A stretch of DNA of 64,000 bases from Deuterostichococcus epilithicus (Eukaryota > Chlorophyta > Trebouxiophyceae > Prasiolales > Stichococcaceae), in assembly GCA_033439295.1 (NCBI GenBank), contig JAVTLE010000005.1:2654501-2718500 (forward strand), read 5' to 3'. The notes under the pieces were generated by a model. It made no database searches. It had not been told where the DNA came from and saw only the letters and a list, made by a program, of their open reading frames with translations. The stretch's first letter is position 1. The number at the start of each line of letters is the position of its first letter. Below, in pieces: positions 3,001 through 36,325 of the stretch. Made by a program: the position numbers and the translations under genes.

Positions 3001-6000
3001 GGCCAGCGGCGGGAGCCACAGGCGCGCACACCCTGCATCTCTGAAGGTCCCCTGGTCGTGAAGGACCCTTGGCCGTGAAGCTCAACCTGGGCCGATTTGG
3101 CTACGTGCGCAGCTCTATCACCCTTTGCCCTTGTACAAGCTTGCTGGCAGCTTGCACTGGGCTGCATGCCACCTGTTGCAGCCTTGCTCAGATGTGACTG
3201 CTGTCCGCTGGAGTCTCTGCAGGCAGCTGGTGGCGCAGTGCATAGTGCCGCCAGTGGCGCAGCTGCTGCTGCCGTCTGTCAGCCGCGGCGACGCCACCGC
3301 GGCCGCCTCGGGCCTGCTTGCCAACATCATCCACAGCTTTGGCTCTGGCGTGCTGCCTGCAGCAGGTGAGGTGGCATGCTGCAGCACAAGTGTCCGGCCC
3401 TGGTGCTTCTGATTGAGGGCGCAGAATGTCGAACGTCTATTGTTAAAGGCCAGCCCTGAACTGGACGAGCGGCTGCAAGCTGCTCGCTGCGGGACAGGCC
3501 AGCTGTTGCCTGCAACCTGTCCGTCACACTGCCACGGTAAAGATTCAAGTTCATGCAAGGACGCTAAGCTGGGACCCTGGCCGTGCGCAGGCGCCGCGTC
3601 GGACACAGCACAGCGCAGCGCGCCCGGAGCTGGCGGAGCCGGCCTGGTCCCCAGCGCCATGGCCGATCAGGTGCTGGCCGGCGCCGTGGCGGCAGGCGCG
3701 CTGCCGGCGCAGGCCGACCTCATCGGCGCGTGCCTGCGGCAGGCTCCCGACGCTGCGCCGGCGTGCGGCGCCCTGCTGCTGCGCCTGGCGGGCGTCGAGC
3801 CGCGCGTGGCAGGTGGGCCCGGGGGATGCCGCATCGACGATGTGTAGGGAGCCATACTGCTCGTCGTACTGTTGTGGCTGTGCGGCGCAGCCTTGGTGGT
3901 CGCCATCACATGCCTCGGCTGCATCGTTGCATTGCGAGACGAGGGTCATCAGTCCAAACCGAGACGAGGGGCACTAGTCCAAACCCGCCAGTTAATGCTG
4001 CAGATGCGGACAGCCGCGGCCGCGGCCTGGAGCTGGCCTGCCTGCTGGTGGACTGCCTGCGGTCGGGCTCCTCGCCCGCCGCCGCACGCCAGCCGGGCGA
4101 CAGCATTGCCTCAGCGTCTGGCGCGGCGGCCGCCGGCAAAGTGGCCTCAGATCCGGCGATGTGGCGGTCGGACGCACTGGACCGGCTGGCGGCGGCGCTG
4201 GCGGAGCCTGACCTGCTAGCGGCGCAGCCCGCGGCGGCGGCGCTGCTGAGCCGGCTGCTCGCCGGCGCCGGCCCGCTGCCGCTGCTGCGGGAGGCCGCCG
4301 CGCTGGCGGCGCTGTCACAGCTCCGGCGACTGCTGCAGGGTGCCCTCGACCAGCCGGGTGCGCAGTTCCTCTCGCTGCAACCGGGCTGGAGCTTTCATGT
4401 CGAAGTTGGCCTTGTCGGCATGCGGTCGGGCACCCCACCCTCTATCCTGTGCTCTCTGCTGTGCAGCGACTCAGTTGGCAGCAGCATGGCTTGGAAAGGA
4501 CCCGCAGCACGATCTTCACTGAATGACTTCGCCTTGCGTGCAGGGGCTGCGGCGGGCGCGCTACGGGCGCTGGACGGTTGTCTTTACTCTGCCGCTCTGG
4601 GTGCCTCGCCGCAGCTGGCGGCGGCGCGCGCCGCAACGCTGTGCGTGGTGCTGCAGCTGTCCTGGGGCGAGGACGCTGCCGTCTCTGATGACCAGGCAGC
4701 CTCGGACGGCGAAGCGGCCAGCGAAGAGGGCAGCAAGGCCAGCAGCCAGGGCGATGCAGACTCGGCAGACGGCGACGGCGCCGAGCCTGCTGCCAGTGCA
4801 CCTATGCCACAGGTGCAGTGGAGCACGGAGCCATTTTGCATCAGCGAGGACATCTGGGCATGTGCAAATGCATTGAAACGTGTGCCCAGCTGTCGAGTCA
4901 CCCGCGCCATGCATGACTGCGTTCAGGCTGACAGCATGAACATCGGAACGCCCCGACAAAGCATGGGAGTGATTGTTGCAATGCAACCGTGCTTCTAGGT
5001 CGCTGCACTGGCGCGGCGGCTGTGGGCGGAGGGCCAGTCCACAGCCGACCTGCTGCAGCGGACGTCCGGTGAAGATGCGGCGGCCATCAGCAGCAGCCTC
5101 ACGCAGCACCTGGCGGGCGCCATCGCCGCTGACACACCAGCACACGGCGAGGTGGGCATGTTGCAAAGCAGAGCACCGGCCCCACTATACACAGGCTCGC
5201 TCGGCCGTTGCTGAGTCCAAAAGGGTTCATGCAGTCCCTACAGACTGCCAGCGCACGCGCCTGCAGCACAGAAGTGTGTTGGTGGCTGTGGCAGCCCTCA
5301 CGTTTGCATCGCGGGCATGAGTCGCAAGCAGACCGCTCCCCACCCTCTCGTGCCTCCAGGACGCCGATTGGGCTGACACCTGGGCGGCACGTGTGGAGGA
5401 GCTGCACGATCTGCTCGATGCGACGCCGCCTGCGGCGGCCGGTCTGCTCAGCAGCGTGCTCGCCCCACGGCGCCTCTGGCCCCGCTTCGCCATTCCATCC
5501 GCCACTGCAGATTCGGCGGCGGCGCCACTGCAGCCGGCGGCAGGGACGCAAGTGGCAGACGAGACGGCTGCTGCCAATGCGATGGATCCATTGACGGCAG
5601 CCCTCGTTGGCCGCCTCGGCGCTGCGGTAGTGTTTGGCGGCAGCAGCGGGGGCCGGCCACACAGGTCAGCTTGATTGCCCAACACCATTCCTGCCACATG
5701 CGCGTCAGGGATCCTGTGGCATTTCACTGCCACATATGCACGACAGGCTGCTCGGCTGAGCAGTCTCAGTCATATTGTCGAGGTGGAAGGGGAGGGCCAA
5801 AAGGTCTCGTCTGGACCTGATCATAGGGCCTGGCTGCTGGACGAGCTGCTTTGCTCGGCGCATAGCCCAAATTCCACCATCAGCTGCGGCCAGGCGGCAA
5901 CGCTGCTGCAGCAGGCTGCGGATGAGATGGAGGGTAGCGGCAGCGTTGACGGCGGCAGCCGCGAAAGCTGGGGTTTCTTTGATGATCTCCTTGACCGGTA

Positions 6001-14313: not shown

Positions 14314-14387
14314 TACTCGGAGCGAGGTTCGAACTCGCGACCTTTCGCGTGTGAGGCGAACGTCATAACCAGCTAGACCATCCGAGC
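14314..14387 (-). tRNA. tRNA-Val (anticodon CAC)
   Basis: On the minus strand the sequence folds as a complete cloverleaf of 74 nt. The acceptor pairs GCTCGGA with TCCGAGT, with one G-T pair at the top. The A box is TGGTCTAGCTGG, and the anticodon stem TTCGC/GCGAA holds loop CTCACAC, giving anticodon CAC at 14353-14351. The T arm GCGAG/CTCGC has loop TTCGAAC, and the discriminator is A. CCA is not encoded, and there is no intron between anticodon and stem. This is the expected form for a nuclear valine tRNA reading GUG, a common codon in GC-rich genes. Confidence 0.95.
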
Positions 14388-30175: not shown

Positions 30176-31359
30176 ATGCCCATTGCATCCAGTATATTTG
30201 GTTTCTTTCGCCATGTACGGCCTATTGCGACGAGACAATCCAAGATAGCCGGTCTAGTGGCAGCCAACCTTGACGCGCCGCCGCTCTACAGGTTGGATGA
30301 TGGGGCATGCTGTCAGCCGCACGGCTGCCATGCATGTCTGCGCCGATGCAGATGCAGGCTGCCACCCTTGTGCTGCAAGCGATCGAGACACAGCGGTGAA
30401 ACACCAAGCGGTTGCCAATCAAAGGGGGGTTGTTACCGTCTCCGCAGGCAGGGCGACTGGCTGGGAGCCGCATTGGCATATGTCAGCTTGGCGCCGGCAT
30501 TCCATGTCTTTTTCAGGGGCTCAATGCTATACAACGAGAGGAACTGGGAGCAGCTGGAGGCGTTTGTGGGCGTGGGCTGCAACGCAGGTGCGGGAATGTC
30601 GTTAGATCGCCGATATGATGATCGTGTCCCGCCTGGTTTTGACACCGAATTATGCCAGAACTTTGAGCTTGAGTTCTGAGCTTGCCTATCATCGGTGCGG
30701 CAGTGCTCAGCAAGGCGCTCAAGTACCTGGTCAAGGTCGAGCGGCCGTCGGAGATGTGCGAAGAACTGGGGCTGTGCGGGGACCTTGGCATGCCGTCGAC
30801 GCATTCGCAAATAATGGCTTTTGCATACGTCAGCATGCTACTGCAGGTGAGCAGTCTTGAACGATCTTATCTGAGAGTCTGCCGCAACGGGTTTTTGCTT
30901 GTGATTTGCTCGCTCCTGCATGGCCGGCACCTCCCCCATCATAACGCTGACAATTCACACTGCGGCAGATCCGGGCCGGCCAGAGCCGCCGCCGTCCACA
31001 GCAGTCACTTCCCGACACAGTTGAGCTCGTCTGCTTGACCGCCCTGGTGGCAGCGGTGGCCTGGTCGCGTGTGTACTTGGGCTACCACGACTTGCCCCAG
31101 ATTTCCGCAGGTATGTTGCAGTTCGCAATGAGGTAGTCACACTGGTCAATGCAGCATGGTCTGGCATCCAGCTCCAAGCAGGCGGCACAAAGTGCAGCTG
31201 CCACAAGCGATTCCAACTGCGTCTGGACCAATTGCTGCAGGCCTCTTCACTGGCGCTGCAGCCGCAGTGGCATGGAGGTGGATCGTGGCCAAAGGCTGGG
31301 TGCGACGGCCGCTCCAACGCGTACTGAGCTTGCTGCCGGGCCATGCACATGCCGAGTGA
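30176..31359 (+). CDS. DOLPP1: Dolichyl-diphosphatase / LPP-gamma-like PAP2 phosphatase
   Basis: The enzyme removes phosphate from dolichyl diphosphate on the lumenal side of the ER so the lipid carrier for N-glycosylation is recycled; the plant relatives are called LPP-gamma and may sit in plastids. Exons are 30176-30291, 30448 to about 30587, about 30680-30846, 30969-31110 and 31241-31359. Motifs are YRQGDWLGAALAYVSLAP near the N-terminus, KYLVKVERP (PAP2 motif 1, KxxxxxxRP), GMPSTHSQIMAF (motif 2, PSxHS) and SRVYLGYHDLPQ (motif 3, SRxxxxxH). All catalytic positions of the superfamily are present, and several membrane helices are predicted. The exon 2/exon 3 junction is unresolved. Choosing between ER dolichyl-PP and chloroplast lipid substrates needs localisation data. 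Confidence 0.87.
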
Positions 31360-31469
31360 ATCGCTGCCTGCAAACCGCGATTATGGGCTTTGGCGTAATC
31401 CGCTTACGTGACAGCAGCAACTGCATTTGATGTTCACTGGATGAACTTAATCATTCTTCATTGATGGAG

Positions 31470-31606
31470 TTTGCTGTGATTTTGCTATGTGTTTTGCCAT
31501 ACCACCAGCAATGCTGTGAAGTACATTACTTCTTCCATGGCCATTGATGGCGATTTTGGCGTGTGGCTTGCTTGGTTATTACAAAACCATGAGTTGACAA
31601 AGGTTC
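31470..31606 (+). repeat. 137-bp direct repeat, left copy, flanking the hairpin array
   Basis: This block starts TTTGCTGTGATTTTGCT and ends GAGTTGACAAAGGTTC. It matches 34060-34196 over its full length with five mismatches (132 of 137). It is AT-rich compared with the array it borders. No target-site duplication was evident outside it. Confidence 0.95.
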
Positions 31607-31922
31607 CTTCGCTTTATTGGAGGCGAGCAAAACCCTGACAGCTCAGTTTGTCGCCGGTGGCTACTTTTTCATTCTCCCTCCTCCCATCCAGTCTACAAGT
31701 GCGCCTGCGGCCCGAGCAGCTACTTTACCATTTCCCTCCTCCCGTCCGGGAGCGAATGTGTCGTTCCGCGCCCGGATGGGAGGATGAAGTTGGAAAAGCA
31801 GCCATGGGGCTGCTCGGAGGGCAGCAGCAAAACTGGCAGCTCGGCTTGTCGCTCGCGGCTACTTTTTCATTTTTCCCCTCCCGTCCGAGCGCGGGGACCA
31901 ACGGATTGTGCTCGGACGGGAG

Positions 31923-32272
31923 GGGAAGGTTGGAAAAGTAGCCATGGGGCTACTCAGTGCCCGCCCGGCAACCAGCGAGGAGGCGAGCAAAACCCTGGCA
32001 GCTCGGCTTGTCGCCCGCGGCTACTTTTGCATTTTCCCCCTCCCGTCCATTCTACAATTGCGCCTGCGGCCCGAGTGGCTACTTTTTCATTCTCCCTCCT
32101 CCCATCCATTCTAAAAGTGCACCCGCAGCCCGAGCGGCTACTTCTTCATTTTCCTCCTCCCGTCCGGGTACGAACGGTGGCATTTGCGCCGGACGGGAGG
32201 AGAAAGCTGGAAAAGTAGCCATGGGGCTGCTCGGAGGGGAGCAACAAAAGTGGCAGCTCGGCTTGTCGCCGG
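31923..32272 (+). repeat. Left arm of a long inverted repeat
   Basis: This roughly 350-bp segment is the near-perfect reverse complement of 33110-33458. It carries GCAACCAGCGAGGAGGCGAG, which reappears inverted in the right arm. The arms are separated by about 840 bp of tandem hairpin units. Confidence 0.88.
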
Positions 32273-33109
32273 TGGCTACCTTTTCATTGTTCTCCTCCCC
32301 TCCAGCGTGGGAGCCAACCATTCACGCTCGGATGGGAGGATGAGATTGAAAAAGTAGCCACGGGGCTACTCAGTGCCTGCCCGGCGACCAGCGAGGAGGG
32401 GAGCGGCAAAACTGGCAGCTCGGCTTGTCGCCCGCGGCTACTTTTTCATTTTTCCCCTCCCGTCCGAGCGCCGGGACCAACCGTTCGCGCTCGGACGGGA
32501 GGGGAAGATTGGAGAAGCAGCCGTGGGGCTCAGAGGCGAGCGGCAGCAAACCCGGCAGCTCGGCGTGTCGCCCGCTACTTTTTCATTTTCCTCCTCCCGT
32601 CCGAGCGCGGGGACCAACCCGTTCGCGCTCGGATGGGAGGGGAAGGTTGGAAAAGTAGCCGTGGGGCTGCACAGGCCCGCCCGGCAACCATCGAGGAGGG
32701 CAGCAGCAAAACCGGCAGCTCGGCTTGTCGCCCGCGGCTACTTTTTCATTTTCCTCCTCCCGTCCGAGCGCTGGACCAACCGTTCGCGCTCGGACGGGAG
32801 GGGAAGGTTGGAAAAGTAGCCGTGGGGCGACACGGAGGCGGGCGGCAGCAAAACCGGCAGCTCGGCTTGTCGCCCGCGGCTACTTTTTCATTTTCCCCCT
32901 CCCGTCCGAGGGCCGGCACCAACCGATCGCGCTCGGACGGGAGGGGAAGATTGGAAAAGTAGCCGCGGGGCGACACAGAGGAGGGCGGCAGCAAAAGTTG
33001 GCAGCTCGGCTTGTCGCCCGCGGCTACTTTTTCATTTTCCTCCTCCCGTCCGAGCGCGGGGACCAACCGATCGCGCTCGGATGGGAGGATGAGATTGAAA
33101 AAGTAGCCA

Positions 33110-33458
33110 ACGGCGACAAGCCGAGCTGCCACTTTTGTTGCTCCCCTCCGAGCAGCCCCATGGCTACTTTTCCAGCTTTCTCCTCCCGTCCGGCGCAAAT
33201 GCCACCGTTCGTTCCCGGACGGGAGGAGGAAAGTGAAGAAGTAGCCGCTCGGGCTGCGGGTGCACTTGTAGAATGGATGGGAGGAGGGAGAATGAAAAAG
33301 TAGCCACTCGGGCCGCAGGCGCAATTGTAGAATGGACGGGAGGGGGAAAGTGAAAAAGTAGCCGCGGGCGACAAGCCGAGCTGCCAGGGTTTTGCTCGCC
33401 TCCTCGCTGGTTGCCGGGCGGGCACTGAGTAGCCTCATGGCTACTTTTCCAACCTTCT
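33110..33458 (-). repeat. Right arm of a long inverted repeat
   Basis: This is the inverted partner of 31923-32272, with high identity by eye. A transcript across both arms could form a duplex of about 350 bp closed by a structured loop. Confidence 0.88.
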
Positions 33459-34059
33459 CTCCTCCCATCCGAGCGCGATTGGTTGTGGTCCTCGCGCTCG
33501 GATGGGAGGAGAAAAATGGAAAAGTAGCCACCGGCGACAAACTGAGCTGCCAGTCTTGCGGCTCGCCTCCTTGCGGGTTGCCGGGCGGGCACTGAGTAGC
33601 CCCGTGGCTGCTTTTTCAATCTCATCCTCTCATCCGAGCGCGAATGGCAATCGTTCGCTCCCGGACGGGAGGAGGGAGAATGAAAAAGTAGCCGCTCGGG
33701 CCGCGGGCGCAATTGTAGAATGGATGGGAGGAGGAAAATTAAAAAGTAGCCGCTCGGGCCGCGGGCACAATTGATGGGAGGAGGAAAATGAAGAAGTAGC
33801 CGCGGGCGACAAGCTGAGAAGTCGGTTTTGCTGCTCGCCTTCTCGCTGGTTGCCGGGCGGGCCTTCTGAGTCGCGCCATGGCTACTTTTTCAGCTTTCTC
33901 TCCCGTCCGGATGCGAAGGCCACCGTTCGTTCCCGGGCGGGAGGAGGAAAATGAAAAAGTAGCCGCTTGGGCCGCGGGCGCAATTGAATGGATGGGAGGA
34001 GGATGGGAGGAGGAAAATGGAAAGTAGCCACCGGCGACAAGCTGAGAAGCCAGTCGGAT

Positions 34060-34196
34060 TTTGCTGTGATTTTGCTGTGTGTTTTGCCATACCACCAGCA
34101 ATGCTGTGAAGTACATCACTTCTTCCATGGCCATTGATGGCGGTTTTGGCGTGTGGCTTGCTTGGTTCTTACAAAACAATGAGTTGACAAAGGTTC
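34060..34196 (+). repeat. 137-bp direct repeat, right copy, flanking the hairpin array
   Basis: This copy has the same orientation as 31470-31606, with five substitutions and no indels. Beyond it the sequence (34197-34490) is ordinary intergenic DNA before the TLC-gene stop codon. The pair lies 2590 bp apart. Confidence 0.95.
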
Positions 34197-34490
34197 ACTC
34201 ACTTCACACGATAACCACAAACCACCCGCAGGCGGGCATAACTTCAGCTTTTGACAACCGAGTCCAGAGCACACAACCACTAGAACGACGACACACAGCT
34301 GAACCAGCCTAGAGCTGGACAGTATGTGTAGGAGACAGAGGACCGATACAGGGCATTGCCGTCACAGATGGGCTCTGAGGACCGGCGCTCATCATGCCAC
34401 GAGGAGGAGAGATAAGAATTGCGCAGCAGTTCCCGCATCCCGAGCTGCGACTGGCAGCGATTTGCACTCAAAGATAGCTGACGGCGGACT

Positions 34491-36325
34491 TTACGCGACC
34501 TTGCGCCAGTGCAGGCTGCCGTTGGAGACCCTCGCATGCACCTTGACCTTTTGCTGATGCAGCTGCGGCTGCTTCTGCGGCTGCTTCCGGACCCCATCCT
34601 GTGCATCCGGATGAAGGAAAGAGTCCCGATGTGTATATCGTGGACAGGCGTGACACTGAACGGAACACACCAGCATGGATGAAGGCTTCTGCAAAGCCGT
34701 GCTCACCTTCGTGGGGCTGCTCAACAGCTTGAGGACGCCTTTGCAGATCTTTGTGAACCACCTGCGAGAAGGTGCCATGCAGGACTGGATGCTGAGCAGC
34801 ACACGGAAGTTGACGAAGAAGTAAGCCACAGGTCTCGTACATCAAGCACATGTCAACTCAAGCGCGACGCCGCAGCTGGAGAGACTGCAGCATGGGCATA
34901 CTTCAAAGTTATGCACATCCAGGCGCCTCACCACATGTTCAGTGAGAACAGGATCGGCGGCACGCCAATGACCAGGGCCCGCCCCGCCGGAGTCAGCAGG
35001 CTGATCTCGCCCCGGTGCTGCCATAGGTGACCGAACATGTACAGCTGTGCCATGATGCGTCCGACCAGCCACGAGATGAACAGCGCCACCCCGTTGGCCA
35101 GGTACACCCTCGAGCCCTTCTTGTTCTGCAGCAAAATTGGTGCACTGCTTCAGCAAAGCAGCAACCCATTCGAATGTGCTGCTCTGAAAGTCATCGCTAA
35201 ACACACACCATGGCATTTTGCATGCGGATGAGAGTTTTGAGACCAGGCTCTCGAAAACCTTGCCTGCATTAAATGAGCAATTTGGAAGCAGGCGCAGAAC
35301 ACTCACCACAGTGTCCAGGCACCAGCGTAAATTGACGAAAGGTGTCGTCACTTCCGTGGCCAAGAATGTTAGCGTGTAGAAGTGCCCCTGGTGGCTAGTG
35401 AGCGCGGTCCAGATGGACAGCGTCGCCGCAATGTGGTGACACACCATCTCCCAGCCGCCCTGCATTGTCAAGATCAGAACTCAGGGCATGAAGTCATGCA
35501 CGATGCATGCAAGCGTTGCTTGCAGGCAGCAAGCAGGAGGACTACTAGCAGCTCAGGCGGTGCTTCGGCAGTGTCCGAGACCCGACAGAGAAGCAGCAAC
35601 AAAACAGCGAAGTGATTGCCCGTCGCGGAACCTGAGCGACACCCACCATTGCTGGGAAGTGCGATGCAATGACCAGGATATCCGCAGTGAAGTAGCCCAG
35701 GGACATGCCCAATGCCGCCTCTGTCAAATCTGATTGTGCCAACATGATGCTGGCGCCGCTCTGCAGTGCAGCAAGTCTGCGGTCACCCTGTGGCCATTGT
35801 CTTCACGCATGACGTGAGAGCCACAGTACACGTAGGTCTGGCAACGATCGAGCAGGAAGAAGTCGAGAGTCGAACGTTATCCAGGCGCCGCCGCGCAAAG
35901 ACGTCTGTCACTCCCAGGGCATACGCCGTCGCCGCGGTGATGGCCAGCGCATGGATTGTGGATGGGATCCTGCGGCGGAGGCCAGCATCTTGAGCATGGG
36001 TTCCCTCGTGGTCGGTGTCACACAGCACAGTTGGGCGCAGAAGCCAATGTGACCGCCGTAGCCGTAAGTCACAGGCATACAAGATGCTCACCTGCTGTCC
36101 CAGTTTCTCTGGTCTGGAGCCTTCAGCTTAGAGTAGCTGGTGGAGACTCTCGGAGTTGCGATCGCTGAGAGCTTATACATTGCCCCGCACGACAGCGTTG
36201 TCACGACCGCTGCGGGAAAAATCACAGGTGGTTGCTTGAACGCCTGCCAGATGATTGCAGCCAACAGAACACGAGAGACCCAGGGACGCACCCGCCAGGA
36301 ACGCCGTTGCCGACATAAATGCCAT
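34491..36325 (-). CDS. TLC-domain multi-pass membrane protein (TMEM56/TLCD-like)
   Basis: TLC proteins are ER or Golgi membrane proteins involved in lipid sensing, synthesis or transport. Eight exons join in frame to 277 aa: 36325-36292, 36209-36092, 35969-35912, 35760-35647, 35459-35307, 35125-34932, 34761-34707, 34598-34491. The N-terminal helix is ATAFLAAVVTTLSCGAM. The family entry motif is SYSKLKAPDQRNWDSRIPST followed by HALAITAATAYALG. LGYFTADILVIASHFPAM and EMVCHHIAATLSIW carry the typical Asp and His-His (about 116-117). FLATEVTTPFVNLRWCL is the hallmark TEVTTPFVN-like helix, and FSLNMWWFTKICKGVLKLL ends the domain before a Lys/Gln-rich tail. The architecture is closer to TMEM56/TLCD4 than to ceramide synthase; no ceramide-synthase Lag1 motif is seen. 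The donor of intron 3 is weak. Confidence 0.88.

Follow-up and report, generated by a model that had tools for sequence, protein, structure and literature searches.

The window analysed here is a 64,000-nucleotide stretch of the green alga Deuterostichococcus epilithicus (assembly GCA_033439295.1, contig JAVTLE010000005.1, forward-strand positions 2,654,501 to 2,718,500). It belongs to contig C5 of a 46.8-Mb genome in 21 contigs, where C numbers denote genome contigs and L numbers the loci extracted from them. Between two convergent gene pieces lies an array of hairpins enclosed by a long direct repeat (Table 1), whose repeat unit is a hairpin of approximately 87 nt joined by a GGCAGCTCGGCTTGTCGCC-type box. 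Using a covariance model (R1) built from 31 hairpins, including the 13 of this array, and a cut-off of E ≤ 0.1, we find 13 complete hairpins of 85–91 nt in the window, all of them inside 31718–33964, and none in L075, the 9.5-kb stretch on the left side of the window. Complete hairpins cover 1130 of the 2441 bp of the array (one hairpin being counted two bases wider), and half units of approximately 59 nt are also present, arranged in tandem in the right half. A motif of the hairpin arm, sought with up to two mismatches, is matched 31 times in the window, each time within the array.

A preliminary description of this DNA had proposed hairpin modules with at least 13 boxes, in two orientations that switch near position 33100, and the hairpins, the arm motifs and the strong folds reported below agree that such an array is real. 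At up to three mismatches the window holds 13 boxes, all in the array, nine forward (31637–33000) and four reverse (33112–34033); at up to four mismatches there are 16, of which 14 are in the array and two outside. The orientation flip at approximately 33108 coincides with an inverted duplication of 379 nt (97%). Because its arms are more alike than most units are among themselves, it looks like a later inverted duplication. Neighbouring units within one cluster also resemble each other, as judged by eye and without a formal test. The array had been placed at the right location (31640–34045), although its exact edges are better drawn as in Table 1. The sense strand of the units was set by those sister clusters that carry a leader. 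An Rfam search of the whole window gives nothing above the gathering score in the array. It does identify one tRNA gene far away, at 14314–14387 on the minus strand (63.3 bits).

Table 1. Features of the hairpin array and its surroundings in the window
Feature	Coordinates	Strand	Remarks
Hairpin array	31615–34055	none	2441 bp; bounds refined
Array, left half	31637–33108	-	units antisense on the plus strand; 9 complete hairpins, 9 forward boxes
Array, right half	33110–34051	+	units sense on the plus strand; 4 complete hairpins, 4 reverse boxes (≤3 mismatches), a fifth at 4
Inverted duplication, left arm	31925–32303	+	379 nt, 97% complementary to 33079–33457
Inverted duplication, right arm	33079–33457	-	379 nt, 97%; spans the orientation flip
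Typical complete hairpin, 87 nt	33022–33108	-	99.0 bits in the covariance model
149-bp direct repeat, left copy	31466–31614	+	94% identical to 34056–34204
149-bp direct repeat, right copy	34056–34204	+	94% identical to the left copy
PAP2-like gene piece	30673–31035	+	PF01569, E 3.1e-5, 24.2 bits, below the curated cut-off of 27.2; points at the array
TLC-domain gene piece	34845–35480	-	PF03798, E 1.4e-11, 45.2 bits, cut-off 24.6; points at the array

A genome-wide search for the module, as the preliminary description had suggested, was run with both the whole array and a single unit, and it recovers relatives in clusters at C16:321368–322379, C12:2934372–2935297, C18:2359908–2360508 and C19:2052168–2052799, as well as a fragment on C19 (C19b, 1418251–1418297, with a leader from 1418136). 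The family is of low copy number, with five main clusters (C5, C12, C16, C18 and C19), the one fragment, and decayed relatives on C1 and C6 that BLAST and the covariance model also picked up. A pattern for one arm, at up to three mismatches, has 56 matches in the genome and none in a reversed control, repeat counts for the genome being lower bounds. Fifty of the 56 fall in the five main clusters (18 on C5, 11 on C12, 10 on C16, six on C19 and five on C18, one of these last about 450 bp outside the interval given above), and the others are in the C19 fragment (one), on C1 (four) and on C6 (one). No Rfam match above the gathering score is found in seven related loci. An origin from a virus or an organelle is unsupported, since exact-pattern scans found no match to the arm in viral or prokaryotic genome contigs and none to the box in viral contigs; no organelle genome was among the sequences scanned. 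Two further structures were seen on C1. In one (L071:6959–7506), perfect palindromes are nested, one of them 84 bp long, and an inverted copy of 199 nt is 100% identical; this stretch matched no hairpin locus in the comparison made; the other is a 284-nt inverted repeat (88%) at L073:39–319 and 3852–4135, near decayed hairpins.

Some of the sister clusters carry a leader beside their hairpins. The genome search finds one leader common to C16, C12 and C19b, and a similar one at C18 was spotted by eye and by alignment. Each of the two U6 genes of this genome carries either CCCATAACT or CCCATTATT, and TATATA begins 34 nt downstream of the first base of that element. The cluster leaders carry a CCCATAACT-type upstream sequence element (USE) and TATATA, both intact at C16 and C18 and both altered at C12 and C19b. 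The distance from USE to TATATA is 34 nt in the C16 leader, the same as in both U6 genes, and 32 nt in the C18 leader, such that the spacing expected of a type-3 promoter for RNA polymerase III (Pol III) is present at C16 and C18, decayed at C12 and C19b, and lacking in the window copy. The U6 and U3 models start 28–30 nt after the beginning of the TATA element, and at 28 nt both C16 and C18 have GGG, which is followed by the first sense hairpin after 71 nt at C16 and 55 nt at C18 (approximately 64 nt in the decayed C12 copy and 49 nt in C19b). In all four leader copies, at four loci, the promoter, whether intact or decayed, precedes a sense-oriented hairpin. Runs of C with N bases just after the inferred C16 start (L009, approximately 4199–4240) mark a weak spot of the assembly.

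To gauge how specific this signature is, the USE–TATA pattern was sought throughout the 46.8 Mb with five spacings allowed. It occurs at 10 sites, compared with one in a reversed control; the spacing is 34 nt at eight sites and 32 nt at two. Two of the sites are the U6 genes, two are the two Plant_U3 genes (one at spacing 32), two are the hairpin clusters of C16 and C18, and four are others. A match to the Plant_U3 model is in keeping with a green-lineage organism. These four, C5:2760619 (+), C7:1686522 (-), C7:2916033 (+) and C11:2093474 (-), are candidate Pol III RNA genes, and the first lies about 42 kb to the right of the window. A CCCATAAC element is intact upstream of 11 of 13 U2 and U5 genes (L079–L091; six of eight U2, five of five U5) and altered in the two weakest U2 matches, and this type of element is likely to be the USE of D. 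epilithicus. None of the 13 stretches, from eight U2 and five U5 genes, contains TATATA, although U5b has TATAA 40 nt after its USE. The presence of the USE without TATATA is as expected if these are Pol II genes. A review (PMC9845283) describes plant U6 and U3 genes as having a type-3 Pol III promoter made up of a USE and a TATA element about 30 nt before the start, with the USE nearer the TATA than it is in Pol II genes. Like those plant genes, the C16 and C18 leaders have a fixed USE–TATA spacing and a predicted start some 30 nt beyond the TATA, and they share the motif itself with the U6 and U3 genes of their own genome; the USE sequence of this genome departs from the plant consensus printed in that review. 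The body, a hairpin array lacking a T6 terminator, also sets them apart from U6 and U3 genes, and the promoter is missing from the window copy.

Folding supports strong hairpins throughout the family. In all eight stretches folded as RNA (seven hairpins from four clusters, one of them on both strands; three stretches from the window), z-scores range from -4.4 to -13.2. The hairpin at 33022–33108 reaches -13.2 on the plus strand and, with short flanks, -10.1 on the minus strand. We aligned 31 of 32 extracted hairpins from five clusters over 29 geometric pairs (alignment A1), leaving out the single L074 hairpin as well as those found later by the model (L011:4904–4986, L012:4466–4549 and weak ones on L071–L074); orientations were assigned from boxes and leaders, that of L011:4183–4269 being uncertain. 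In this alignment 94.0% of cells are paired, and the clusters fall into two types, C5/C12/C16 and C18/C19, set apart by changes in one arm of the stem that are matched in the other. Cells with double changes number 36, compared with 16.7 in shuffles, and the covariation score is 0.192 versus 0.128, a value reached in none of 500 shuffles. The number of pairs with a double change shows no excess (5 versus 5.3 in shuffles). Because arm-to-arm conversion can also keep palindromic DNA symmetric, covariation alone is no proof of a function as RNA.

The edges of two clusters are informative about how they came to be where they are. Genome searches place the 149-bp repeat around the window array at two sites only, both beside the array, and likewise a different direct repeat of 162 bp (99%) that brackets the C16 cluster; by eye the latter runs a few bases further, and its left copy contains a 15-bp local duplication. 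Because the two repeats differ in sequence and each is confined to its own two places, they appear to derive from the target rather than from the element. For these two independent duplications, each of approximately 150 bp, the best reading is duplication of the target or duplication in the course of break repair. At both ends of both bracketed clusters the box stands in inverted order. Among the open reading frames (ORFs) scanned near other clusters were a dehydrogenase E1 piece in L009 (C16) and an ABC transporter piece in L012, and a by-eye reading of an NAD-kinase-like ORF beside the C12 cluster was dropped when Pfam gave no match.

How the family should be named depends on the systems with which it is compared. 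MITEs (miniature inverted-repeat transposable elements) are short non-coding palindromic units, and the hairpin family is like them in this respect; it is unlike them in forming clusters rather than dispersed single units and in having long duplications on either side of the two clusters whose edges are clear. Arm matches are not scattered singly but concentrated, with 50 in the five clusters, one in the C19 fragment and five on C1 and C6. Green-algal inverted-repeat small-RNA loci provide a different parallel, since the hairpins here are likewise long and could feed Dicer. A type-3 Pol III promoter would be unusual for such loci. Foldback (FB) transposons offer the closest anatomical match. 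As described for Tetris from Drosophila virilis (PMC4079207), they share with the family long inverted arms made of tandem repeats, a variable repeat number, few complete copies and no coding capacity found; the window array has such arms with internal tandem repeats, and copies are dispersed in the genome. Unlike in Tetris, each repeat here is itself a hairpin and some copies have a U6/U3-type promoter. Among the identities that the preliminary description had offered, a foldback-like element therefore fits the anatomy best, with its internally repeated inverted arms and dispersed copies, and a nest of MITEs fits poorly because 50 of the 56 arm matches lie in five clusters. The U6/U3-type promoter that sister copies carry, intact in two and decayed in two, lends support to the idea of a small-RNA locus, although the window copy is without one.

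We consider it about an even prospect that the window array belongs to a non-autonomous, foldback-like repeat family as one of its copies, and that some copies have a type-3 (U6/U3-type) Pol III promoter aimed at their hairpins. The promoter at some copies is established by its sequence, spacing and position, and from it we infer transcription. The window copy taken alone is, to judge from its sequence, a promoterless derivative. It was probably inserted, or captured during break repair, between the two convergent genes, an event that would have duplicated about 149 bp of target, as suggested by flanking repeats that are found nowhere else. Its opposing orientations accompany the internal inverted duplication, which is itself plainly visible. 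Promoter-bearing copies, if transcribed, would yield an RNA string of strong hairpins that could be a natural Dicer substrate. A more ambitious version sees in the clusters natural hairpin-RNA arrays driven by U6 promoters, mobile now or formerly, which would produce a concatenated-hairpin Pol III transcript for the silencing machinery and would have moved with nucleosome-sized (approximately 150-bp) target duplications. We regard this version as distinctly doubtful.

Several observations weigh against a promoter-bearing, foldback-like family. A T6 run closes both U6 genes, whereas the 1.5 kb after the inferred start at C16 or C18 contains T4 and T5 runs but no T6. The first T4 is at +77 in C16 and +158 in C18 and the first T5 at +383 and +200, respectively, and such runs could end transcription early. 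The sense strand has 8 T5 runs and the antisense strand 23 (summed over C5, C16, C12 and C18), a difference that comes from the C5 halves (2 versus 10 and 2 versus 6) and C16 (1 versus 4) and is not seen in C12 (1 and 1) or C18 (2 and 2); it may be explained by one ancestral base difference copied many times. Overall, the terminator evidence is unfavourable to transcribed hairpins. The leaders raise a separate concern. The C18 leader as a query found only itself and the C16 leader missed C18; because no database match joins the C18 leader to the others, its tie to them is made through the promoter elements and the alignment. The window array has no recognisable leader at the thresholds tried, and none was recognised at the C19:2052k, C6 and C1 loci. 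Long flanking repeats are lacking at the C12, C18 and C19 clusters, where short ones were not systematically searched, and no transposase or reverse transcriptase domain occurs in the selected ORFs scanned near the clusters. The target duplications of Tetris are 8–10 bp (PMC4079207), whereas those here are 149 bp (window) and 162 bp (C16), and because of this discrepancy the family is classified as a variant that resembles foldbacks and not as a proven member.

Stem mismatches in the alignment, read on the sense strand, number 48 G-U and 50 A-C and indicate no preference for G-U; counted once per pair and locus, the numbers are 32 and 26. This test of strand asymmetry is neutral. An earlier count from 22 hairpins (window, L009 and L010, with the L011 and L012 hairpins outside its total) had given 38 G-U versus 68 A-C (p 0.0046), contrary to pairing of a sense-strand RNA, and was set aside as it included a conserved internal loop. 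A hint of more G-U from RNAalifold was discounted because its pairs had been chosen on the sense strand and were hence biased.

Many of the same data bear on the proposal that the clusters are host RNA genes, that is, Pol III hairpin-RNA loci that supply the small-RNA machinery much as natural U6-driven short-hairpin arrays would, with promoterless clusters as relics. The constant order of promoter and sense hairpin, the stability of the hairpins in folding, the pairing kept between cluster types and the smaller number of T5 runs on the sense strand all speak for host genes. Even so, just two promoters look intact, no T6 terminator is in reach, G-U shows no strand bias, double-change pairs do not exceed shuffles, neither the array nor the seven related loci match Rfam above the gathering score, and the T5 difference may reflect a single copied base and is missing from two clusters. 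We judge host RNA genes to be rather unlikely. The symmetry of G-U and A-C mismatches would instead suit an ordinary DNA-level repeat of foldback or MITE derivation, enlarged through unequal exchange and inverted duplication, its U6-like leader being a chance capture with no role; the resemblance of neighbouring units and a window copy without a leader also fit. Such a repeat is harder to reconcile with an order of promoter then sense hairpin kept in four copies at four loci, with hairpins that are clustered rather than single, and with flanking repeats that are long rather than short at the two clear-edged clusters, and we hold it to be unlikely.

The flanking duplications lend themselves to yet another explanation, in which hairpin-rich pieces were caught at double-strand breaks as filler DNA and staggered ends were filled in to leave long flanking duplications. 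The unequal lengths of 149 and 162 bp would agree with this, as would the local duplication of 15 bp noted by eye on the left side of C16, and PMC8355091 describes how filling in broken ends gives tandem duplications. Both inserts with long repeats nevertheless start and end with inverted boxes, which fits an element with defined ends, and filler DNA appears very improbable to us. Because the same units recur in separate clusters, misassembly is unlikely to be the explanation in general, although the exact repeat number in the window is as assembled and not read-checked.

The promoter-bearing, foldback-like family matters for several reasons. Literature searches on green-algal U6 promoters, Pol III hairpin elements, foldbacks with long target duplications, algal palindromic repeats and hairpin small RNAs, and type-3 Pol III promoters in transposons gave no title or abstract opening in which we recognised this arrangement of promoter and hairpin array, and it is solely on the strength of those titles and openings that we call it unreported. 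The compact USE–TATA signature for Pol III genes of this genome, checked on both U6 and both U3 genes, is useful for the expression of guide RNAs and for finding more RNA genes. The long flanking duplications would be of interest for break repair or for a new mechanism of insertion. C16 and C18 are loci at which transcription can be tested directly, and their layout of a U6-type promoter driving hairpins is what engineers construct deliberately for RNA interference. If true, a host U6/U3-type promoter placed before the hairpins would join foldback DNA to Pol III hairpin RNA.
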